Below, one piece after another: positions 33,178 to 44,726 of a stretch of DNA of 64,000 bases. The notes below the pieces were generated by a model. That model saw only the letters and a program-made list of their open reading frames with translations, had not been told where the DNA came from and made no database searches. The stretch is from the NCBI GenBank assembly GCA_017447265.1, contig JAFSOA010000010.1, forward strand, positions 1 to 64,000, given 5' to 3'. Made by a program: the position numbers and the translations under genes. Source of the stretch: Bacteroidales bacterium (GTDB lineage Bacteria; Bacteroidota; Bacteroidia; Bacteroidales; UBA932). Positions within the stretch are counted from its first letter, which is position 1, and each line of letters opens with the position of its first letter.

Positions 33178-36100
33178 ATGAAAAAAACACTCAAGTTTTT
33201 CATGGCTGCAGCAGCCTTTCTGATGATGGTGTTTACGGCCCAGGCCCAGGTGACCACCTCGGCCCTCGCCGGACAGATCGTCGATGAAGGCGGCGAGCCG
33301 CTGGTCGGCGCGACCGTCATCGCGGTCCACACCCCTTCCGGCACGCAGTACTATGCCGTGGCCAACGAAGAAGGCCGCTATGCCATCCAGGGTATGCGTA
33401 CCGGTGGCCCGTATGAAGTGACCTACTCCCTGATCGGCTGCCAGACGGTCGTGATCCCCGACATCACCCTCGCCCTGGCTGAAACCTATCAGCAGAACGT
33501 GCGGATGAAGACCGCGGCCCAGAACCTCTCCGAGGCCATCGTGGTCGCATCGGCCGCTTCCAAATTCTCCAATGAGAAAACGGGTGCCGCCACCAACATC
33601 TCCAACCAGCAGATCACCAACCTCCCGAGCGTGAGCCGCGCCATCACCGACGTGACCCGCCTGTCGCCGTACGGCGGCAACGGCATGAGCTTCGCCGGCA
33701 GCGACGGTCGTCTGGCCAACTTCACGGTGGACGGTGCCAACTTCAACAACAACTTCGGTCTGAGCTCCAACCTGCCTGGTGGCGGCAACCCGATCTCCAT
33801 CGACGCCATCGAGGAACTCCAGGTCGTGATCTCCCCGTATGACGTCCGTCAGACCAACTTCATCGGCGGCGGTGTCAACGCCATTACGAAGTCCGGTACG
33901 AACACCTTCCGCGGAAGCGCCTATGTGTATCATCGCAACGAAAACCTCCGTGGTGACACGGTAGAAGGCGAGCAGATCGGCGGCGCACGCGCCAAAGACC
34001 GTTCGACCACCTACGGCTTCACCATCGGCGGCCCGATCGTCAAGAACAAACTCTTCTTCTTCGTCAACGGCGAATATTCCAAGATCCCGACCATCGTCAA
34101 CCGTTGGCAGGGTTCCACGAACGGCGTCGCCGATCCGGACAACTACATCTCCCGCACGAAACTCAGCGACCTGCAGCGCGCCTCCGAATACGTGAAGAGC
34201 AAATATGGCTATGACACGGGTTCCTGGACCGACTTCCCGGCCGATGAGAAGAACATGAAGATCCTGGCCCGCCTTGACTGGAACATCAGCAACCAGCACA
34301 AGCTGGCCCTCCGTTACAACTATACGCAGAACAACGTGTGGAACTCGCCGAACGGCAGCTCCATGGACGGTGGCACGCGTATGAGCGGCGCCCGTATGTC
34401 GCAGTACTCCATGTCCTTCGCCAACTCGATGTATTCCATGAAGAACATCGTGAGCACCTGGTCGCTCGACCTCAACAGCCGTCTGTCCGACAACCTGTCG
34501 AACCAGTTCCTGGCCACCTTCTCGAAACTCGACGATATCCGCGGCACCAACTCCGAAGAGTTCCCGTTCATCGATATCCTCGATGACAACAGCTCCAACA
34601 ACTACATGGCCCTCGGCTATGAGCTGTTCACCTGGAACAACGCCGTGCACAACACCGTGGCCAACGTCAAGGACGACATCACCTGGTACAAGGGCAGCCA
34701 CAAGGTTACCGCCGGTCTCAACTACGAGTATCAGATGGCTGACAACCAGTACATGCGTAACGGTTCCGGTTACTACCGCTACAAGACTCTCGACGACTTC
34801 CTCAACGGCCGTACCCCGGAGGTGGTCTGCTTGACCTACGGTTACGACGGTGAGCAGTATCCGGCCGCCCGTGTCCAGTTCCACAAAGCCGGCATCTATG
34901 CCCAGGACGAATGGAACATCAACGACCGCTTCAAACTGACCTACGGTATCCGTCTCGACGGCCTGTTCTTCGACAACGGCGACCTGATGACCAACAATGC
35001 CATCAAGGAGCTGACCTATTATCCGAAGCGGTACAACTACCAGGAAACGCACATCGACACCGGTAAATGGCCTACCTCCAAGGTGACCGTTTCTCCGCGC
35101 GTGGGCTTCAGCTGGGATGTCTTCGGCGACAAGAGCTTCAAGGTGCGTGGTGGTACGGGTCTCTTCTCCGGCCGTCTGCCGCTCGTGTTCTTCACCAACA
35201 TGCCGACCAACGGTGGTCTGGTGCAGTATCAGGCACAGATCAATGCCAAGAACGCTGCCGCAAGAGGCTTCTCGATGGATGTGTTTGACGGCGGTCTGGT
35301 GACCGACGCCAACGGCAAGGCTACCATCGCGGCTCTCTACGACAAACTCGTCAGCCTCGGTTACCCGAGCACGGTGAAACCGGAAGACGGTACGGTTCCT
35401 TCCGCCGTCAACGGTGTCGATCCGAAGTTCAAGATGCCGCAGGTCTGGAAGAGCTCGCTCGCATTGGACTACAGCTTCCCGACCTCTTTCCCGTTCAGCA
35501 TCTCGGCTGAGGGTATCTTCAACAAGACCGTCAACGCGGTGGCCATCTCCGACTGGAGCATGAGCAACGTGGCCGGTTTCGCCCGCTTCAACGGTGCCGA
35601 CAACCGCCCGATCTATCCTGCCGGCTTCCGCTACACCACCAAAGCCTTTGTCCTGGAGAACACCGACAAGGGTTACGGCTGGAGCGCCAGCGCCCAACTC
35701 AACATGCAGCCGATCAAGAGCCTGAGCATCATGGCCGCCTACACGCACACCGTGAGCAAGGAAATCACCGGCATGCCGGGTTCCGCCGCCGAGTCGGCCT
35801 TCACCTATGTGCCGACCAACGAAGGTCCGAACTACATCAAACTCCACAATTCGCAGTATGTGACGCCTGACCGCGTGGTCGCTTCCCTGACGCACCACGA
35901 CAAGGCCGGCAACCACTACAGCTTCATCTATGAGGCTTGGCGTGGCGGTTACAACTACTCCTACATGCTGTCGAACGACATGAACGGCGACGGTTACAAC
36001 TACGACGCTCTCTACATCCCGACCGACGAAGAAGTGCAGACCCGCCAGTTCCGTTTTGTCTCGCCTGACGACCAGAACCGCTTCCTGGACTTCCTCCACA

Positions 36101-36480
36101 ACGACAAGTACCTGAGAAGCCACCAGGGCCAGTATGCAGAAGGCTACAGCCTCTACAGCCCGTGGGTGCACCGTCTGGACTTCAGCTACAAGCACGACTT
36201 CACCGTCAAGTGCGGCAAGAACACCAACACCTTGCAGCTCTGCCTCGACCTGAAGAACGTCCTCAACCTGTTCAACTCCAGCTGGGGTGTGAGCAAGTAC
36301 CTCAACCCGGCCATCGGCTCCGATGCCCGCATCCTCAAGTATGAAGGTGTCGACGCTGACGGTTATGCTACCTTCTCCACGCCGGCCGCCATCAGCGGCG
36401 CGACCCAGACTTTCGTTCCGAACCACGCGCTCGGACAGTGCTGGTATGCTTCCGTGGGTATCAAATATCTGTTCAACTAA
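33178..36480 (+). CDS. Large Oar-like TonB-dependent receptor
   Basis: An 1100-aa outer-membrane receptor. Signal peptide (about 1-23, ending AQAQ), carboxypeptidase-like domain (about 27-120: LAGQIVDEGGEPLVGATVIA), plug (about 125-250: LPSVSRAITDVTRLSPYGG, FTVDGANFNNNFG, VVISPYDVRQTNF, GTNTFRGSAYVYH) and a long barrel ending SVGIKYLFN. This is the Oar/OmpA-related TBDR type without a SusD partner. It follows the nuclease by 51 bp and precedes the OB-fold lipoprotein by 16 bp. Frequent CGT and GGT codons resemble fusA and suggest strong expression. The substrate is unknown; nucleic acid products are suggested by the neighbour. Confidence 0.9.
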   Translation: MKKTLKFFMAAAAFLMMVFTAQAQVTTSALAGQIVDEGGEPLVGATVIAVHTPSGTQYYAVANEEGRYAIQGMRTGGPYEVTYSLIGCQTVVIPDITLALAETYQQNVRMKTAAQNLSEAIVVASAASKFSNEKTGAATNISNQQITNLPSVSRAITDVTRLSPYGGNGMSFAGSDGRLANFTVDGANFNNNFGLSSNLPGGGNPISIDAIEELQVVISPYDVRQTNFIGGGVNAITKSGTNTFRGSAYVYHRNENLRGDTVEGEQIGGARAKDRSTTYGFTIGGPIVKNKLFFFVNGEYSKIPTIVNRWQGSTNGVADPDNYISRTKLSDLQRASEYVKSKYGYDTGSWTDFPADEKNMKILARLDWNISNQHKLALRYNYTQNNVWNSPNGSSMDGGTRMSGARMSQYSMSFANSMYSMKNIVSTWSLDLNSRLSDNLSNQFLATFSKLDDIRGTNSEEFPFIDILDDNSSNNYMALGYELFTWNNAVHNTVANVKDDITWYKGSHKVTAGLNYEYQMADNQYMRNGSGYYRYKTLDDFLNGRTPEVVCLTYGYDGEQYPAARVQFHKAGIYAQDEWNINDRFKLTYGIRLDGLFFDNGDLMTNNAIKELTYYPKRYNYQETHIDTGKWPTSKVTVSPRVGFSWDVFGDKSFKVRGGTGLFSGRLPLVFFTNMPTNGGLVQYQAQINAKNAAARGFSMDVFDGGLVTDANGKATIAALYDKLVSLGYPSTVKPEDGTVPSAVNGVDPKFKMPQVWKSSLALDYSFPTSFPFSISAEGIFNKTVNAVAISDWSMSNVAGFARFNGADNRPIYPAGFRYTTKAFVLENTDKGYGWSASAQLNMQPIKSLSIMAAYTHTVSKEITGMPGSAAESAFTYVPTNEGPNYIKLHNSQYVTPDRVVASLTHHDKAGNHYSFIYEAWRGGYNYSYMLSNDMNGDGYNYDALYIPTDEEVQTRQFRFVSPDDQNRFLDFLHNDKYLRSHQGQYAEGYSLYSPWVHRLDFSYKHDFTVKCGKNTNTLQLCLDLKNVLNLFNSSWGVSKYLNPAIGSDARILKYEGVDADGYATFSTPAAISGATQTFVPNHALGQCWYASVGIKYLFN

Positions 36481-36496
36481 TTAACAAGACTGCGAT

Positions 36497-38152
36497 ATGA
36501 AAATCAAGAATATCCTTGTTTCCCTCTTTGCCATTCTGGCTCTCGCAGCCGGTTGCAATCAGATCGAGCCGGATCATTATCTGGACGAGGTTTCGCTTTC
36601 CACTTCCTATGTCTCCCTCTCCATGGCGGGTGGTTCCTCTTCCGTCGAAGCCTTCACGGCCGACAACTGGACTATCACCGGCGCTCCTTCCTGGCTGACC
36701 GTCACCCCGACTTCGGGCAGTGCCGGTGTGACCAGCATCTCCTTCTCCGCCCCCACGACGCTTGACGGTCGTTCGGCTGAACTCATCCTGACCTGCGCCG
36801 GCAAGACCCAGCGCATCAATGTGATCCAGGGCCTGTCTACCGTCTCGCCCGCTACCTGTGCTGAGGTGATCGCCGGTCCCGACAGCAAGACCTACCTGGT
36901 GACGGGTGTCTGCACGGGTATCGCCAACACCAACTATGGTAACTGGTACCTGATGGACGACACGGGTGAGATCTATATCTATGGTACGGTCAATGCGGCC
37001 GGCAACTATGCCTGGAGCAGCTTCGGCATCGAGGTCGGTGACGAGGTGACTGTCCAGGGCCCGAAGACGACCTACAACGGTACCGTCGAGCTTGTGGATG
37101 CACAGGTTGTCAACGTCAACAAGTCGCTCATCAAGATCGCCGAGATTGTCCCGATGGAAGGTATCTTCCCGACGGCTGGCGGCGACATCGCCATCACGCT
37201 CAACAACAAGGGTAAAGGTCTCTACGTGGAGATCCCCGAAGCAGCGAAGAGCTGGCTCACCATCAAATCGATTGCTGGCAACACCATCGTGTTCCATGCC
37301 GATGAGAACGTCGCCGGCCCGCGTACCGCGACCCTCGTGTTCAAGACCACGGACGGCAAGAAAGACTATACCTGCGAGACCAGCCTCATCCAGCTGGGTG
37401 CTTCCGGTTCGAAGGACCTTCCGTTCACCGTGGACGAGGCCATCGCTTACGCCATGAGCGTAGGTACCGAGACCACGACCGACTTCTACGTGAAGGGTAT
37501 TGTCTCCAAGATTCTGGACAAGGGCGAGTACGGTTCCTACGGCAACGCCTCCTTCTGGATCTCCGACGACGGTGAATACCACAATGATCTGTCCCGCGAC
37601 TTCGAGGCTTACCGTGTCCTCTGGCTCGGCAACGAGAAGTGGGTTGAAGGCAACGCCCAGATCGCTGTCGGCGCCGAGGTCATCATCTGCGGTCATCTGA
37701 CGACCTACAAGGGTACCGCCGAGACGGCCCAGAACAAGGCGTATGTCTACCAGATCAACGGTGTCCATACCGATGCCAACGGTATCGGAACCAAGGCTGA
37801 TCCGTTCAACGTGGCCGGTGCCATTGCTGCTTGCAACGCCATTGGTGGCGCCACGAATTTCAATGCCTATGTGACTGGCAAGGTGTCGAAAGTCGAAAGC
37901 GCTTACAGCGCCCAGTACGGCAACGCTACCTTCTGGATCTCCGAAGACGGCGCTTACCACGACAAGGATGTCACGAAGGACTTCGAGGCCTACCGTGTCC
38001 TCTGGACAGACGGCAAGAAATGGGCGGAAGGTGATCCGCAGGTCGCTGTCGGTGACAAGGTGACGATCTACGGCCAGCTGACCCTTTACAAAGGCCTCGC
38101 CGAGACCAACTCCGGTAAAGCCTGGGTCCAGGAGCACATTCCTGCCAACTAG
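36497..38152 (+). CDS. Lipoprotein with BACON domain and three OB-fold-like modules
   Basis: A 551-aa lipoprotein (MKIKNILVSLFAILALAAGC, Cys20). A BACON domain (about 30-113, with TADNWTITGAPSWLTV) is followed by an OB-like module (about 118-212: YLVTGVCTGIANTNYGNWYL), a second BACON-like part (about 213-300) and two near-duplicate OB-like modules (about 312-418 and 430-548). In the last two, YGNASFWISDDGEYHND and YGNATFWISEDGAYHDK align, as do FEAYRVLW in both. It ends the nuclease-TBDR operon and is followed by palindromes and an intrinsic terminator. A surface nucleotide- or nucleic acid-binding role is inference. Confidence 0.8.
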   Translation: MKIKNILVSLFAILALAAGCNQIEPDHYLDEVSLSTSYVSLSMAGGSSSVEAFTADNWTITGAPSWLTVTPTSGSAGVTSISFSAPTTLDGRSAELILTCAGKTQRINVIQGLSTVSPATCAEVIAGPDSKTYLVTGVCTGIANTNYGNWYLMDDTGEIYIYGTVNAAGNYAWSSFGIEVGDEVTVQGPKTTYNGTVELVDAQVVNVNKSLIKIAEIVPMEGIFPTAGGDIAITLNNKGKGLYVEIPEAAKSWLTIKSIAGNTIVFHADENVAGPRTATLVFKTTDGKKDYTCETSLIQLGASGSKDLPFTVDEAIAYAMSVGTETTTDFYVKGIVSKILDKGEYGSYGNASFWISDDGEYHNDLSRDFEAYRVLWLGNEKWVEGNAQIAVGAEVIICGHLTTYKGTAETAQNKAYVYQINGVHTDANGIGTKADPFNVAGAIAACNAIGGATNFNAYVTGKVSKVESAYSAQYGNATFWISEDGAYHDKDVTKDFEAYRVLWTDGKKWAEGDPQVAVGDKVTIYGQLTLYKGLAETNSGKAWVQEHIPAN

Positions 38153-38159
38153 CATTCCA

Positions 38160-38215
38160 AACCCCGGGTCAAGCCCGGGGTGACGGAAAACATCCTGCCG
38201 GGCTTGACCCGGCAT
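38160..38215. repeat. Two CCGGGTCAAGCCCGG-family palindromes
   Basis: ACCCCGGG/CCCGGGGT (38161-38168 with 38174-38181, loop TCAAG) and TGCCGGG/CCCGGCA (38197-38203 with 38209-38215, loop CTTGA). The two hairpins are inverted copies of each other's core. The first is followed by TGACGGAA, also found after the coding copy at 39489-39507. Confidence 0.75.
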
Positions 38216-38221
38216 CGCAAA

Positions 38222-38248
38222 GGGCGGTCTTCTGACCGCCCTTTTTTT
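38222..38248 (+). terminator. Intrinsic terminator
   Basis: GGGCGGTC (38222-38229), loop TTCT, GACCGCCC (38234-38241), then seven T. A textbook rho-independent terminator ending the operon 31060-38152. Confidence 0.92.
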
Positions 38249-38253
38249 GTCCT

Positions 38254-38379
38254 GCGCCGTCCCTCTTTGCGCGACACAGACGCCGGCGCCGCTTCTTCTG
38301 TGTCGCGCGAGGTTTCTGCCCGAAAACCGCTATTTCCTTCCCGCGACACAGACGAGACAGATGAAACTTCTGTGTCGCG
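38254..38379 (+). repeat. Left inverted repeat bracketing the half-length TBDR gene
   Basis: 113 bp (38267-38379) match the reverse complement of 40179-40291 with about eight mismatches. It contains two internal hairpins built on GCGACACAGA/TCTGTGTCGC. The match extends outward to 38254 through GCGCCGTCC, but with one unit of the 15-nt repeat that is expanded at the right end. Confidence 0.88.
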
Positions 38380-38401
38380 AGCGGGAAATGAGATAAAATG
38401 A

Positions 38402-40099
38402 TTAAAGAATGTATCGCAAGCCGAAAAGCAATTGCGAACTGCTGGCGGCACGACGGTAGTAACCCGTGAGCTGGAAGCGGTGCTCCCGGCCGCCGGTCTG
38501 GAAGAAAAAGTCCTGGCTCAGGCGTACTTCAAAGAGATGGTGCCAGACGAACATATCCGGCGCCGGATATGTGCTGCTGAGCAGCGACTCGTCCACGTGC
38601 TGTCCGTCATAGAGCACCGCCAGCATCGTCGCGAAATGCCGGGCATATTCCGCCTGGTACGAGAAGCCCCCCATAACGCGGTCGCGGATCCATCCGTCGC
38701 TGCGCGTATAGGAAGCCAGGGCCCAGGCCCGCTTGGCGAAGGGCCGCTCCATCCGCGCCGTCAACGCATAATGGCTGTCCAGCACATTGCGCGAAGAGAT
38801 ATAGAAAGCCCGGCGCCAGGCCTGCCCGTAGATGCCTTCGAGCGTCAGCTTGAAATCGAGCGGCAGGCGCGTATCAATGGCCGCCAGATTCTTCCAGACC
38901 GTGCCTTCGCCATGCACGCCATAGACCGCCGTGCCGGCACGCAGCACGAGCCGGCCATTGCCCAGCGCATCGTAATACACGCTCACACGCGGCGAAAAGG
39001 CAAAGGGGAAGGTAAAGCGCACACCGGCCTGCAGGGTCAGGCGCCGCCCGAGGCGGATGGCATCCTGCACATAGATATCGCCGTGCGTGGACGTTGAATC
39101 GGCCAGGATGAAATTCTGGTAGGAGAACTGCACGCCGGCCAGCACACGATGTCTTCCTGCGGCAAAGGTGAAGTCATCGGAAGCCAGCAGCTGGCGGGAA
39201 TAGCCGGTCGCGTACCAGCCCGCCTGGAGCCGCATCGAAAGCTGTTCGCTGAAAGATGCCGTCAGCCCTGCCGTGGCCCAGTTTTCACCCCCGAAATGAT
39301 CCGTGCCGGCCACATTGGCCGCCAGCCGTCCGCCGGAGAGATCCAGCCGGAAACGCTCGCTCAAGCGCGCGTCGAAGCGCGCCGCGCCGGAAAGGGCCTG
39401 GAGGCTACCGCCATATTGCAGGCCGCCGAACAGCTGGTAGTCCTGGTTTCCAAGGGGAGTGGCGATGCTGAGGCCGCCGAGTCCCAGATGCTGGGTCGAG
39501 CCCGGCATGACGGAAGAAGCGTCCTCGCCGGGAAAGCCAACGCCGCCAAAAAATCCGTAGGCTGTGCCATGGAAACGGCTGCTGCCCGTGGGCATCATCC
39601 ATTGCTCCGAAACGCCCGCCAGCGGCGATGTCTGCCGTATATCGAAGGCCACGGGCGTGGAGATGCGCTGGCTCACCAGGTCGTAGCCCAGCGGAGAGAC
39701 CGGCACCGTGCCGCCACCCAGTTCGGGGCCCATGCGCAGTGAGGTGGCGGCCTCATCGACATGGACATACGATGTCTTCGCTTCCAGATCGGCGTCGACC
39801 ACGGTGTTCTGCCCGGCATAGGTAAAGACCTGTCGGACAGTTAGCGGATCGTATCCGAAATAGTGGATGCGCAGCGTATAGGGGCCGCCCGGCAGGACGT
39901 CCAGCAACTGCCACCAGCCTCCGTGGCCTGTCGTGGTATAATACTGTGCGTTGGTCTGCTGGTGGATGGCCACCACGGTCACGCCCTCGATCGGGCCGTT
40001 CTCGTCGGTCACACGGCCGCCGAGGCTGGCCGTACCGGTCTGCGCAGCTATCGGCAGCGCCGCCAGCAGCAATATGATGGTGCAGAGTTTTCTAATCAT
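38402..40099 (-). CDS. Half-length TBDR-like outer-membrane protein
   Basis: A 565-aa protein: signal peptide MIRKLCTIILLLAALPIAAQ, carboxypeptidase-like domain (about 22-105: SLGGRVTDENGPIEGVTVVA), a shortened region that keeps FDIRQTSPLAGVSEQWMMPT and SSRFHGTAYGFF (compare DVRQTNF and NTFRGSAYVY in the Oar-like receptor at 33178), then a barrel ending in LLFGLRYIL. The usual plug opening with the TonB-side beta strands is not evident and the length is about half that of the neighbour. The -7 box TATCTTTG ends 4 nt before the ATG. Residues near 200 (VMPGSTQH) are encoded by a genomic palindrome. The gene sits alone between inverted repeats. It may be a degenerate receptor or a distinct barrel. 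Confidence 0.72.
   Translation of the reverse strand: MIRKLCTIILLLAALPIAAQTGTASLGGRVTDENGPIEGVTVVAIHQQTNAQYYTTTGHGGWWQLLDVLPGGPYTLRIHYFGYDPLTVRQVFTYAGQNTVVDADLEAKTSYVHVDEAATSLRMGPELGGGTVPVSPLGYDLVSQRISTPVAFDIRQTSPLAGVSEQWMMPTGSSRFHGTAYGFFGGVGFPGEDASSVMPGSTQHLGLGGLSIATPLGNQDYQLFGGLQYGGSLQALSGAARFDARLSERFRLDLSGGRLAANVAGTDHFGGENWATAGLTASFSEQLSMRLQAGWYATGYSRQLLASDDFTFAAGRHRVLAGVQFSYQNFILADSTSTHGDIYVQDAIRLGRRLTLQAGVRFTFPFAFSPRVSVYYDALGNGRLVLRAGTAVYGVHGEGTVWKNLAAIDTRLPLDFKLTLEGIYGQAWRRAFYISSRNVLDSHYALTARMERPFAKRAWALASYTRSDGWIRDRVMGGFSYQAEYARHFATMLAVLYDGQHVDESLLSSTYPAPDMFVWHHLFEVRLSQDFFFQTGGREHRFQLTGYYRRAASSSQLLFGLRYIL
39489..39507. repeat. Palindrome of the CCGGGTCAAGCCCGG family inside a coding sequence
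   Basis: TGCTGGG/CCCGGCA (loop TCGAG) followed by TGACGGAA, as after the intergenic copy at 38161-38181. It lies in the gene at 38402-40099 and is read there as part of DASSVMPGSTQH. Confidence 0.65.
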
Positions 40100-40103
40100 A
40101 TTG

Positions 40104-40111
40104 CAAAGATA
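40104..40111 (-). promoter_or_regulatory. -7 box TATCTTTG, leaderless arrangement
   Basis: On the minus strand TATCTTTG is followed by CAAT and the ATG at 40099. The promoter lies inside the segment bounded by the inverted repeats. Confidence 0.6.
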
Positions 40112-40178
40112 ATAAAAGTCTCGCCGCATTTTCTTCCCTTTCCTTGCTTCTGCTATTCTGTTTAGCTTGTTCTCTTTG

Positions 40179-40360
40179 CGTGACACAGACGTTTTAACTG
40201 TCTCGTCTGTGTCGCGGGGAGGAAATGGCGGTTTTCGGGCAGAAACCCCGCGCGACACAGAAGAAGCGGCGCCGGCGTCTGTGTCGCGCAAGGAAAGACA
40301 GCGCAAGGAAAGACAGCGCAAGGAGGGACAGCGCAGTGAGGGGCAGCGCAAGGACGGCGC
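40179..40360 (-). repeat. Right inverted repeat with expanded 15-nt tandem array
   Basis: 40179-40291 is the inverted partner of 38267-38379. Continuing outward, 40286-40358 holds about four and a half copies of a 15-nt unit (GCGCAAGGAAAGACA and variants), where the left copy has roughly one. The 336-bp spacer 40100-40434 otherwise holds only the -7 box at 40104-40111 and the AT-rich leader of the next gene; no gene is seen in it. Confidence 0.85.
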
Positions 40361-40434: not shown

Positions 40435-43400
40435 ATGAAAAGAGCTAGAATCATGATCCTGCTGGCGGCCGTGGGGCTGCTGGCGGCGTCAGCCACAGCC
40501 CTCTCCGCGCAGGAAAGCGCGCGCTGGCTGCGCAAGAACGCCATCTCCCCCGACGGAACCCGCATCGCCTTCTCCTACAAGGGCGACATCTACGTCGTGC
40601 CCGTGGCGGGCGGCCAGGCCCGGCAACTGACCACCAACCCGGCCTACGATTCGGACCCTGTCTGGACGCCTGACGGAAAGCAGCTGTTCTTCAGCTCGTA
40701 CCGCGAAGGCAGCAAGGATATCTTCCGCATGCCGGCCGAAGGCGGCACGCCCAAACGCATCACCAACTATCCCGGCAACGAGACCCCGAAGGCCGTGCTG
40801 CCCGACGGGCGCATCGCCTTCACGGCCAACCTTCAGCCCGACGTCCAGTTCGACGGCTTCCCGGGCGACGCCCAGGTCTGGGCTGTCTCGCCCGAGGGCG
40901 AGCAGCCGACCCGGCACCGCCCCGCGCTCCTGAGCTCGATCACCATGTCGGAACTGAGCGTGCGGCCCGACGGCGCCATCCTCTATGAGGACTACAAAGG
41001 CTACGAAGATCCGCTCCGCAAGCACCACACCTCCGCCGTCACCCGCGACATCTGGCTCTGCCAGAACGGCAGCTTCACCCAGCTTTCCCGCTTCAACGGC
41101 GAGGACCGCCAGCCCGTCTGGGCCGCCGACGGCGACACCTTCTACTATCTGAGCGAGCAGGGCGGCAAGACCATCAACCTGTTCAAGAGCAGCGTCAGCA
41201 ACCCCGGCAAGGCCGAGCAGCTGACCCGCTACGAGAAAGACCCCGTCCGCTACATCTCCGTGGCGAACGACGGCACGCTGGCCTTCTCGCAGAACGGCGA
41301 CCTCTATATCTTGCAGGAAGGTGGCGAGCCGCGCAAGCTGGCCATCGCGGTGACCCGCGACGAGAACGAGCGCGACCTGGTGAAGATGAACTATACGGGC
41401 GGCGCCACGTCGATGGCCGTCTCGCCCGACGGGAAAGAGATCGCTTTCGTGGTCCGCGGCGACGTCTTCGTGACATCCACCGAATACAACACCACCCGCC
41501 GCATCACCAACACCCCGGAGCAGGAACGCGGCGTGAGCTTCTCGAAAGACGGCCGAGAACTCTATTACGCTGCTGAGCGAGGCGGCTGCTGGGGCGTCTG
41601 GCGCACCGTCCTGACCGAAAAGAACGACAAGCTCTTCACCTATGCCGTCAAGACGAAGGAGGAGCTCTTTTCCGAACCTGGCGTAACCAGCTTCCAACCC
41701 GAAGTCTCGCCCGACGGCAAGTGGGTGGCCTACCTGCGCGACCGCACCGAACTTGTGGTCCGGTCCGCGAAGGGCGGTGCCGTCAAATCGCTCCTCAAGG
41801 GCGCGAACTATTCCTACAGCGACGGCGACCAGTCCTTCGCCTGGAGCCCCGACAGCGAATATCTGCTGACCGAATACCAGGCCAACGGCGGCTGGAACAA
41901 CACCGACATCGCCCTGATCGAGGTCTCCACCGGCCAGGTGACCGACCTGACCGAGAGCGGCTACTCCGACGGCAGCTTCCGCTGGGCCCTCGGCGGCAAG
42001 GCCATGACCTGGGAATCCGACAAGAACGGCTACCGCAGCCACGGCAGCTGGGGCGCGCAGGGCGACATCTACATCATGTTCTTCGACGGCAAGGAGATGA
42101 GCAAGTTCGCCCAGGACAAGGAAGATGAGGAGATCGAGAAACTGCTCAGCGGCAAGAGCGAGAAACAGCTGGCCAAGGAAGAGAAGAAAGACTCCCTGGC
42201 CCAGGAAAAGCCTAAGAAGCTGGAACTGACCCTCGAAGGCCGTGAAGCCCGCATCCGCCGCCTGACCGCTTCGTCGGCTTCCTACGGCGACCATTATCTG
42301 TCCAAAGACGGCCGCAAACTCTACTACGTGACTCCGCTCGAAAGCGGCATGGGCCTTTGTGTGAAAGACCTGCGCGAAGGCAGCGTGAAAGTGCTCTCCC
42401 GCGGCGTCACTGGCAGCATCACGCCGTCGCACGACGGCAATGATATCTTTATGTTCTCAGGCCGCGGCATCACCAAGGTGACCTTGTCCAGCGGGCAGAC
42501 CAAGCAGATCCACTTCGCCAGCGAGTTCGAGTTCAAGCCGAAGGCAGAACGGGAATACATGTTCTCGCACGTGTGGAAGCAGGTGAAGGAGAAATTCTAC
42601 GATCCGGACCTGCACGGCGCCGACTGGGACTATTACCGCGAGAACTATGCGCAGTTCCTGCCCTATATCGACAATTATTTCGACTTCCAGGAGATGCTTT
42701 CCGAGTTGCTGGGCGAGCTCAACGGCTCGCACACGGGCGCCCGCTACCGTCCGCAGGGCGGTGAGAGCCTGGGCCGGCTCGGCGTACTCTACGACCTCGG
42801 CTATACCGGCGCCGGCCTGCGGATTACCGAAGTGCTGCCGGGCGGCGTGCTCAACCTGGCCGACAGCGAGATCAAGGCCGGCGACGTGATCGCCGCCATC
42901 GATGGCAAGCCCATCGCTCCGGGCGAGAACTGGTTCCCGTTGCTCGCGGGCAAGGCCGGCAAGAAAATCGTGGTGACGGTGCGCAAGGGCGGCGAGAAAG
43001 GCAAGGAGGAGGATCTGATCGTCAAGCCGGTGGCCAATGAAAGCACGCTGCTCTACCGCCGCTGGGTGAAGCAGCGCGAAGACTTGGTCGAGCGCCTCTC
43101 CGGCGGCCGCGTGGGTTACGTGCATGTGGAAGGCATGGACTCGCCTTCGTTCCGCGAAGTGTATTCGAAGGCGCTGGGCAAGTACCGCAACTGCGACGCG
43201 CTGATCGTCGACATCCGCCACAACGGCGGCGGCTGGCTCCACGACGACCTCGTGACCCTGCTGGGCGGCAAAGCCTATGTGGAATGGCGCCCGCGGGGCC
43301 AGTACATCGGCACGGAGCCCTATAACAAGTGGACCAAGCCTTCCTGCGTGCTGATGAATGAGGACTGCTACTCCGATGCCTGCGGCTTCCCCTACGCCTA

Positions 43401-43662
43401 CAAGGCCCTGAACCTGGGCAAGCTCGTCGGCATGCCGGTACCCGGCACGATGACCGCTGTGTGGTGGGAGACGCTCATCCATCCGCAGATGGTCTTCGGC
43501 ATCCCCGAAGTGGGCGGCTGGATTCCCGAGAAGCAGTATTACATGGAGAACCACCAGATTGAGCCCGACGTCCGCGTCGACAACGATCCGGCTTCCCGCC
43601 TGCGCGGCGAAGACCGCCAGCTCGAAGCCGCCGTCCGTGAGATGCTCGCCGGCTTGAAATAG
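40435..43662 (+). CDS. Tricorn-like protease (beta-propellers, PDZ, S41 peptidase)
   Basis: A 1075-aa secreted protease with signal peptide (about 1-25, ending ALSAQ). Residues about 28-330 and 335-680 carry WD40/TolB-like propeller repeats (ISPDGTRIAFSYKGDIYVV, VSPDGKEIAFVVRGDVFV). A charged Lys/Glu segment (about 560-600) separates parts. PDZ at about 780-860 (GLRITEVLPGGVLNLADSEI), S41 core at about 880-1045 with LIVDIRHNGGGW and nucleophile Ser980 in CYSDACGF. Tricorn-type enzymes degrade oligopeptides; the signal peptide suggests the periplasm. It is monocistronic, with a 38-bp gap to the convergent aldolase gene. Confidence 0.92.
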   Translation: MKRARIMILLAAVGLLAASATALSAQESARWLRKNAISPDGTRIAFSYKGDIYVVPVAGGQARQLTTNPAYDSDPVWTPDGKQLFFSSYREGSKDIFRMPAEGGTPKRITNYPGNETPKAVLPDGRIAFTANLQPDVQFDGFPGDAQVWAVSPEGEQPTRHRPALLSSITMSELSVRPDGAILYEDYKGYEDPLRKHHTSAVTRDIWLCQNGSFTQLSRFNGEDRQPVWAADGDTFYYLSEQGGKTINLFKSSVSNPGKAEQLTRYEKDPVRYISVANDGTLAFSQNGDLYILQEGGEPRKLAIAVTRDENERDLVKMNYTGGATSMAVSPDGKEIAFVVRGDVFVTSTEYNTTRRITNTPEQERGVSFSKDGRELYYAAERGGCWGVWRTVLTEKNDKLFTYAVKTKEELFSEPGVTSFQPEVSPDGKWVAYLRDRTELVVRSAKGGAVKSLLKGANYSYSDGDQSFAWSPDSEYLLTEYQANGGWNNTDIALIEVSTGQVTDLTESGYSDGSFRWALGGKAMTWESDKNGYRSHGSWGAQGDIYIMFFDGKEMSKFAQDKEDEEIEKLLSGKSEKQLAKEEKKDSLAQEKPKKLELTLEGREARIRRLTASSASYGDHYLSKDGRKLYYVTPLESGMGLCVKDLREGSVKVLSRGVTGSITPSHDGNDIFMFSGRGITKVTLSSGQTKQIHFASEFEFKPKAEREYMFSHVWKQVKEKFYDPDLHGADWDYYRENYAQFLPYIDNYFDFQEMLSELLGELNGSHTGARYRPQGGESLGRLGVLYDLGYTGAGLRITEVLPGGVLNLADSEIKAGDVIAAIDGKPIAPGENWFPLLAGKAGKKIVVTVRKGGEKGKEEDLIVKPVANESTLLYRRWVKQREDLVERLSGGRVGYVHVEGMDSPSFREVYSKALGKYRNCDALIVDIRHNGGGWLHDDLVTLLGGKAYVEWRPRGQYIGTEPYNKWTKPSCVLMNEDCYSDACGFPYAYKALNLGKLVGMPVPGTMTAVWWETLIHPQMVFGIPEVGGWIPEKQYYMENHQIEPDVRVDNDPASRLRGEDRQLEAAVREMLAGLK

Positions 43663-43678
43663 CGAAACAGACGGGGAC

Positions 43679-43702
43679 GCCGCTTCTTAGCGGCTTCCTT
43701 TT
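43679..43702. terminator. Short hairpin between convergent genes
   Basis: GCCGC (43679-43683), loop TTCTTA, GCGGC (43690-43694), then TTCCTTTT. Small, but placed where both the tricorn-like gene and the aldolase gene end. Confidence 0.5.
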
Positions 43703-44726
43703 AGAGCCATTTACGAAGTTCTTCGATGTGGTCGGGCGGGGTGGCCCAGCTGGTGGCGAAGCGGACGGCTGTGTGGTCGGGGTCGACGCGGTCCCAGAGA
43801 TCGAAGGCCACGTGTTTGGCAAGCGCGGCCAGTTGCCGGTTCTCCAGCACCACGAACTGCTGGTTCGTGGGGGAGTCGATGAAGAAGGTGCAGCCCTTCT
43901 CCTGCAGCATGGCCTTCAGCTGCATCGCCATCTCGATAGCGTGGCGGCTGATCGTGAAGTAGAGATTGTCGGTGAAGAGCGTGTCGAACTGGATGCCTAG
44001 CAATCGGCCCTTGGCCATCATGGCGCCGTGCTGCTTGGTGATGGTGTAGAAATGCTTCGGCGCGTTGGCGTGCGGGAAGACCACCGCCTCGCCGCAGAAG
44101 CAGCCCACTTTCGTGCCGCCAATATAGAATACGTCGCACAGGCGCGCGAGCTCAGGGAGCGTCAAGTCGCAGGCCGGGCTGGTAAGGCCGTAACCCAGGC
44201 GCGCGCCGTCAACGAAGAGCGGCAGGCCGTAGCTGTGCGCGATGCCGGCGATTTCCTCCAGCTCCCGCTTCGTGTAAATCGTGCCATATTCCGTCGGGAA
44301 CGAGATGTAGACCATCCCCGGGAAAACCATGTGCTCGTAATTCGGATCGGTGGTGGCAGCCACCAGGTAGGCCTTCAGCTCTGCCGGGTCCATCTTGCCC
44401 TGGTGGCCCGGAATTGTGAGCACCTTGTGCCCCGTGTACTCCACGGCACCCGCCTCGTGCACACCGATGTGCCCCGTCTCGGCCGACACCACGCCCTCGT
44501 AGTCTTGCAGCATCGCCGCAATCACGGTTGAATTGGTCTGCGTGCCGCCCACCAGGAAGAACACCTCCGCCTCCGGCGCCTCGCACGCCGCGCGGATCTT
44601 CGCCTTCGCGCTTTCGCAGTAATGGTCCATGCCGTAGCCCGGCAGTTGTTCCAGATTCGTCGCCGCCAGGCGCTCCAGAATCTTCGGATGCGCCCCTTCG
44701 CTGTAGTCGCAAGTAAAGGAAATCAT
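43701..44726 (-). CDS. ltaE: Low-specificity threonine aldolase (PLP-dependent)
   Basis: A 341-aa fold-type I PLP enzyme of the beta-eliminating lyase family, which splits L-threonine or allo-threonine to glycine and acetaldehyde. Visible are the cofactor-phosphate region GGTQTNS (about 60-66), the stacking region GHIGVHEAGA, LFVDGARLGYG with the PLP-ring Asp173, and the Schiff-base Lys206 in YIGGTKVG. Length is normal. It is monocistronic on the minus strand; a -7 box TATCTTTG lies at 44749-44756, giving a 5' UTR of about 15-20 nt. Confidence 0.9.
   Translation of the reverse strand: MISFTCDYSEGAHPKILERLAATNLEQLPGYGMDHYCESAKAKIRAACEAPEAEVFFLVGGTQTNSTVIAAMLQDYEGVVSAETGHIGVHEAGAVEYTGHKVLTIPGHQGKMDPAELKAYLVAATTDPNYEHMVFPGMVYISFPTEYGTIYTKRELEEIAGIAHSYGLPLFVDGARLGYGLTSPACDLTLPELARLCDVFYIGGTKVGCFCGEAVVFPHANAPKHFYTITKQHGAMMAKGRLLGIQFDTLFTDNLYFTISRHAIEMAMQLKAMLQEKGCTFFIDSPTNQQFVVLENRQLAALAKHVAFDLWDRVDPDHTAVRFATSWATPPDHIEELRKWL

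Follow-up and report, generated by a model that had tools for sequence, protein, structure and literature searches.

How did a single receptor-like gene come to lie between two long inverted repeats, and have these repeats turned the gene around or moved it? The question is raised by one locus in the window, by which we mean the whole stretch of 64,000 nucleotides that was analysed. The window genome (G000) was compared with its relatives (other G numbers; 40 genus genomes compared), whose contigs and loci carry C and L numbers, respectively.

Two inverted double hairpins around one gene

The inverted copies at 38267-38379 and 40179-40291 were identical at 106 of 113 positions, with 7 mismatches where about eight had first been counted, and the inverted match extended over 38253-38404 and 40154-40305 (129 of 152 positions identical). 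As the initial annotation had described, each arm contains two hairpins. Each has the form GCGACACAGA-N16-TCTGTGTCGC, with 10-bp stems and 16-nt loops, and the two are placed 36 nt apart; one of the eight half-stems (40180-40189) has a mismatch. When up to one mismatch was allowed, GCGACACAGA occurred 14 times in the window; 100 shuffles averaged 5.26 occurrences, and all stayed below 14. Single-stranded DNA folding of both arms on both strands gave z-values from -4.6 to -5.7. No recombinase was seen near the arms by inspection of the open reading frames of at least 100 aa between 32000 and 47000, in agreement with the first description of the locus, and the relative G035 carries a transposase gene between two arm copies at the corresponding place.

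Table 1. Coordinates of the features at the receptor locus
Feature	Position	Strand	Remark
Left reference gene, BACON-domain protein	36497..38152	+	
Hairpin with T run following the BACON gene, on the outer side of the left arm	38219..38249	+	sequence
Left arm, BIME-like element	38263..38386	+	covariance model R1 126.7 bits (copy belonged to the R1 training set); folding z -5.1
Left-arm hairpins	H1 38271-38306, H2 38343-38378		H1 with GGCGCC-type loop; 36-nt spacer between H1 and H2
Small outer-membrane receptor-like gene, 565 aa, inverted segment	38402..40099	-	CarboxypepD_reg domain and short barrel-like part
TAtcTTTG promoter-like element immediately upstream of the ATG, moving along with the gene	40104..40111	-	also directly before the start in G016, G033, G037
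Right arm, inverted copy of the left-arm element	40172..40295	-	R1 122.2 bits (copy belonged to the R1 training set); 106/113 identical to left arm
Right-arm hairpins	H2 40180-40215, H1 40252-40287	-	
15-bp tandem units outside the right arm	40286..40360	+	repeat family D5
Right reference gene, tricorn-type protease	40435..43662	+	
Possible decayed H1 half between the tricorn and threonine aldolase genes	43662..43688	+	85% over 27 bp, E 0.07; weak

The arms enclose one gene, as had been claimed. Its own promoter, which had been claimed as well, is presumed from the promoter-like TAtcTTTG directly before the ATG. The presumed promoter travels with the gene, so an inversion could be tolerated and the gene could stay functional, which argues against an on/off switch; the gene is probably expressed. 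The product matched PF13620 (E 3.7e-16), and a match to the outer-membrane barrel family PF25183 was weak (E 0.00095, below its cut-off); a plug domain was absent from its four listed family matches. The gene is about half the length of the 1100-aa receptor at 33178-36480. At E <= 1e-20 it was found in 17 of the 40 genus genomes, as a single copy at one conserved locus. An open frame of 535 to 675 codons is kept in 15 genomes, which rules out an orphan truncated receptor, and the gene forms a family of its own. The frame is split over two frames in G035, which may reflect decay or an assembly error, and in G036 the gene is a contig-end fragment.

The sequence at 38154-38247, outside the left arm, matches G016 on the same strand at 87.5%, over a stretch that is partly repetitive. 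Within it, behind the BACON gene, 38160-38217 is a CCGGGTCAAGCCCGG-like repeat, and comparable stretches recur intergenically in G016 and G033. The possible decayed hairpin half (Table 1) gave no R1 match at E <= 0.1. Rfam at gathering thresholds returned one tRNA and a SAM-II riboswitch in the whole window and nothing else; the riboswitch (RF01726, 30862-30923, 45.7 bits with a cut-off of 44) precedes a gene that by eye resembles S-adenosylmethionine synthetase.

A dispersed element family and its transposase

Further copies of the arm were found in the same genome (C3:164557 and C9:71111), together with elements near the ends of C4, C7 and C10. Elements lie within about 250 bases of the ends of C3, C4 and C7 and of the start of C10, and may break the assembly. 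Matches to the arm DNA at E <= 0.01 were present in 11 of the 40 genus genomes, and the R1 model at the same threshold gave matches in 21, two of them only near 0.006. R1 match counts were 16 in G000 and up to 67 in G021, with one element often counted on both strands. An alignment of 25 copies defined the element as a 124-nt double hairpin consisting of hairpin 1, whose loop is GGCGCCGCTT-like, a spacer of 36 nt and hairpin 2, whose loop is GAGAC.GATGAA-like. Compensatory changes were found in the stems: 95% of the cells pair, both sides had changed in 9 of 20 pairs, and the covariation score was reached by 0 of 500 shuffles. Inspection of the same 25 copies by eye revealed no consistent tetranucleotide at the stem foot that would correspond to the canonical GT[AG]G. 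Since both stems share their sequence, local or long-range folding is possible; RNAalifold preferred long-range pairing between the two hairpins, and two local hairpins were taken for the model instead. The elements are near-palindromic, and a direction call can hinge on a small score gap (68.5 compared to 62.1 bits in G034). Across the family, elements at E <= 1e-6 and with stricter filters were found in 13 of 199 genomes and 2 of 25 genera. By eye, L165 and L166 (G016 and G033) contain a different inverted-repeat element, with ends near GTCCGTCAAAGTGTGACACG, between the receptor gene and the tricorn gene.

The transposase gene of G035, which encodes a 316-aa RAYT, lies left of the receptor gene with an element copy on either side. 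Before the tricorn gene of G037 and G010, two elements flank a gene with 68% identity to this RAYT gene, and a 61% relative of the G037 gene adjoins the receptor gene in G034. In a scan of 22 of 30 RAYT loci (the 8 omitted are 24-27% identical), some of which hold R1 training copies, a hand count gave an element within 400 bp of the RAYT gene at 17 of the 22 loci and on both sides at 7; none lay within that distance at the remaining 5 (L126, L131, L133, L134 and L135). All 16 genomes with a RAYT at least 50% identical to P0001 had R1 matches, and 5 of the other 24 had them too (G000, G003, G005, G009 and G019). No close RAYT was found on the 19 contigs of the G000 assembly, which is 79% complete.

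An alignment of 18 close RAYT members has an HxH motif at positions 50-52, with H50 and Y107 invariant and H52 nearly so (R in L145), and a distance of about 55 residues from HUH to Y. None of the 18 matched PF01797 in Pfam, the NCBIfam model NF047646 (REP_Tyr_transpos) was weakly matched by 2 of the 18 (best E 0.0047), and the close members had no Pfam or NCBIfam match at E <= 0.001. No TnpA structure was matched by the close set. In G029, two relatives with 35-36% identity overlap PF01797 matches above the cut-off, and the RAYT profile gave an E of 5.4e-5 and a probability of 66.6% with ten PF01797-positive proteins of the genus. Several RAYT paralogues are associated with different stems in the same hairpin layout, and at the thresholds of the paralogue scan no hairpin was found at L121, L126 and L127. 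The RAYT family was found in 0 of 295 genomes across the order at E 1e-20, in a set without a positive control. We conclude that both arms represent BIME-like REP doublets that belong to a divergent group of RAYT-type HUH/Y1 transposases.

Direction of the receptor gene and traces of its history

The receptor gene was co-directional with the flanking genes in every unambiguous genome that lacked a long inverted pair next to this gene, 13 in all (G007, G010, G015, G016, G017, G018, G021, G023, G032, G033, G034, G037 and G038). Direction was judged from the BACON gene or the preceding receptor gene and, where present, the tricorn gene; in G023 only the BACON gene was used. The gene is reversed in G000 and G035 and also, relative to the tricorn gene, in a partial contig of G036. 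The ambiguous G006 was left out of this count: its gene agrees with p758 and disagrees with the tricorn gene, its contig begins just upstream, and a long inverted pair is present. A long inverted repeat beside the gene was found in G000 (127 bp, 91%), G035 (135 bp, 85%) and G006 (145 bp, 92%), and none was found in the gaps beside the gene in 13 of the 16 genomes tested, with G036 tested on one side only; here and at the second locus described below, the test covered the gaps adjoining the block and 30 further bases. The relatives checked are metagenome assemblies, in which misassembly at repeats is possible.

On a tree of the tricorn and threonine aldolase genes, the reversed genomes formed a clade with a support of 0.984, and one change in direction sufficed, which was matched by 0.2% of 2000 shuffles (n = 15, without the ambiguous G006 and without G023, which had too few residues). 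The support of the clade was 0.834 when the Oar receptor was added. On a two-locus tree G036 was placed elsewhere and two changes were needed (n = 17, with G006 counted as unreversed). Contigs C75 and C41 of G036 took different tree positions, which suggests a mixed bin or gene exchange. The reversed genomes may go back to one event, and thus the association at the receptor locus counts as one case.

A comparison with G016 located the breakpoints. The outer flanks had their best matches on the same strand, whereas the best matches of the inner flanks were on the opposite one, so that the strand switched within 38248-38453 and 40112-40358; each interval, at a resolution of about 206 and 247 bp, respectively, contains one arm. 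The left outer flank, which is partly repetitive, also matched G016 more weakly at other places, in one case on the other strand. The suggestion that the gene could invert is thus supported, for a past event, by the reversed gene in G000, G035 and the G036 fragment and by the strand switch in arm-containing intervals.

Relatives preserve further traces of this history. The order in G035 is BACON (+), arm, RAYT (+), arm, receptor gene (-), inverted arm, tricorn (+), with the RAYT and its arms flipped in direction compared to G010 and G037. Apart from the threonine aldolase and GHL6 genes, which lie between the receptor gene and the RAYT in G010 and G037, G035 is one inversion away from the order of those two genomes, plus one upstream arm. 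An element that has the direction of the right arm relative to the tricorn gene lies between the receptor gene and the tricorn gene in G006, G010, G016, G034 and G037, and G034 has a second element there in the other direction. A second, Oar-like receptor gene precedes the small one in G016, G018, G033, G034 and G038, and is missing there in G000 and G035. The RAYT is present at the receptor locus in G035 and absent in G000, where the left arm combines the outer flank of G035 copy A with the inner flank of G035 copy B, as expected from a deletion between direct repeats. The alternative, an insertion of the RAYT in G035, is less likely because G010, G034 and G037 also have a RAYT near the receptor gene.

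The arms themselves look mosaic. Over alignment columns 8-92 the right arm of G000 was nearest to copies A and B of G035 (2/85 differences) and differed from the left arm of G000 at 3/85 and from its counterparts by position, G035 copy C and the right arm of G036, at 6/85 and 8/85, respectively. Over columns 93-118, in contrast, the right arm of G000 grouped with that of G036, and G035 copy C with the left arm of G000 (1/26 differences each). Such mosaics, which involve few sites, fit gene conversion or repeated crossing over.

Other loci in the genus have changed direction as well. In G025 (L081:5536-9149, C15), opposed elements of 160 bp and 97% identity bracket two genes that by inspection were named M3-peptidase-like and flavodiiron-like. 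This block has one direction in 9 of 16 genomes (G000, G007, G010, G016, G017, G018, G035, G037 and G038) and the other in 7 (G021, G023, G025, G032, G033, G034 and G036), and G025 is sister to G000 on the tree of this second locus, yet has the opposite block direction. At least six direction changes were required on the locus tree with 16 genomes, and 84% of shuffles need six or fewer; with reversals this frequent, the direction of the block holds no phylogenetic signal. The ends of the block carried a long inverted repeat only in G025 among the 14 of 16 genomes tested (G007 and G023, with no HAD match found, were left out). Most flips at this locus thus appear to have left no repeat or used another route, and elements are not needed for every inversion in the genus. 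The strand of the threonine aldolase gene relative to the tricorn gene changed at least four times in 16 genomes; in the window this gene (43662-44726) lies on the opposite strand to the tricorn gene, and in G035 and G036 on the same strand. At a third locus, L207:8366-12430 (G035:C11), a gene for a receptor-like protein of about 990 aa is reversed together with its neighbour compared to G000, G016 and G033. This block (genes 05/04) has an element at one breakpoint (L207 12307-12430), with weak element matches in G000 and G016, and is a lead only. Two more inverted pairs were seen: at G025:C1 only 4 of 40 genomes have matches to the bracketed gene, which is not enough to judge orientation, and the pair at G006:C37 lies on a contig of 6921 bases.

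Proposed history, alternatives and known systems

Direct observation shows the element family, its link to the RAYT, the reversed orientation, the arm-containing breakpoint intervals and a RAYT that is present at this place in G035 but not in G000; from these we infer the order of events and the recombination pathway. In the ancestor, the order among its genes would have been BACON (+), receptor gene (+), element, RAYT (-), element, tricorn (+). An additional, oppositely oriented element copy would then have arrived on the upstream side of the receptor gene, and recombination between the outer inverted copies, most likely by ordinary homologous recombination, would have turned the receptor gene and the RAYT around to give the order of G035. 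In the lineage of the window, recombination between the two direct copies that flank the RAYT would then have removed it and left one gene between two inverted arms. We consider this account as a whole, with two opposed RAYT-linked REP doublets, inversion between them and later loss of the RAYT, to be probable. The receptor locus would then be a stepwise record in the relatives, from element and RAYT through an inversion that carried the RAYT to its loss.

The inversion may also be read as part of an ongoing reversible switch, with frequent recombination between the arms in living populations so that gene direction varies between cells. The mosaic arms and the second-locus block, with its repeated changes in direction, fit such a switch, but the mosaic depends on few columns and gene conversion without inversion would look alike. 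Moreover, the three clade members all share one orientation, and it is not obvious that flipping would switch expression, as the presumed promoter moves along with the gene; we regard an ongoing switch as unlikely. It is doubtful that opposed RAYT element pairs form a reusable, still active inversion system in which the RAYT promotes single-strand exchange at the hairpins. If they did, single genes and small blocks would flip back and forth over evolutionary, perhaps population, time. That the inversion was made by RAYT-catalysed single-strand cutting and joining at the elements, instead of homologous recombination, is unlikely; arms of more than 110 bp could support ordinary recombination. 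A RAYT with HUH and Y motifs does lie inside the inverted segment in G035, and the E. coli TnpA-REP cleaves and rejoins REP sequences (PMC6006769), but the part of that source drawn on here does not mention gene inversion for TnpA-REP.

Coincidence would require an unrelated reversal of the gene, followed by the arrival of REP-like elements on either side of it. Some relatives have many elements, and the second-locus flips occurred mostly without them, as coincidence would allow. However, an arm lies in each of the two breakpoint intervals, the arms are oriented to each other as an inversion requires, and the RAYT was flipped together with the gene in G035; we therefore find coincidence improbable. 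The initial annotation had also proposed a cassette that could move, in effect a transposon-like unit that carries a passenger gene between long terminal inverted repeats. An arm at either end with a single gene inside has this appearance, but the gene occupies the same locus in all 17 genomes that have it, with no second copy in any, and arms occur elsewhere without the gene; a mobile cassette is thus very improbable. That annotation had held that a dispersed, REP-like arm with no link to this gene, and no support for inversion, would speak against it. The arms are indeed dispersed and not linked to the gene, whereas the relatives do support inversion.

Paired REP-doublet repeats may help to reshuffle gene direction, and in a genus with frequent block reversal one could directly count how often paired REP elements have a part in gene inversion. 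In the open-access literature we found no report of gene inversion between RAYT-linked REP elements, and the term 'inversion' is absent from the text of the REP-dimer paper PMC3733652. The segment resembles invertons in that it lies between inverted repeats and differs in direction between genomes (PMC11892184 and PMC5903667, in the parts drawn on). In contrast to invertons, it comprises a whole gene with its presumed promoter, its arms are more than 110 bp of a dispersed element, and no invertase was seen beside it. Like the REP dimers described in the part of PMC3733652 considered here, in which most partners are 20-100 bp apart and some spacers are structured, the elements have two hairpins; unlike in those dimers, no consistent GTAG or CGTC tag was seen.

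REP, BIME and RAYT are already known, and so is a subclass, mostly from Bacteroidetes, whose hairpins are atypical, as set out in the part of PMC6006769 drawn on here. The closest known system is REP/BIME (REPIN) with RAYT (TnpA-REP), and within it subclass 2.6, or RAYT group 5, which is mostly from Bacteroidetes (PMC6006769, same part). Shared with REP/RAYT are dispersed paired hairpins, copies that flank a Y1-HUH transposase and a hairpin sequence of its own for each transposase, and shared with subclass 2.6 are atypical hairpins without GT[AG]G (section 12 of the same source). The window-type elements differ from REP/RAYT in their 36-36-36-nt layout and conserved loop sequences, and from subclass 2.6 in the gap between HUH and Y of about 55 residues compared to a median of 82 there (PMC6006769, as far as drawn on). 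What appears to be new is a divergent RAYT/BIME group, with RAYT and elements in this genus and elements also in one other genus of the family sample, for which comparative evidence suggests gene inversion between its elements.
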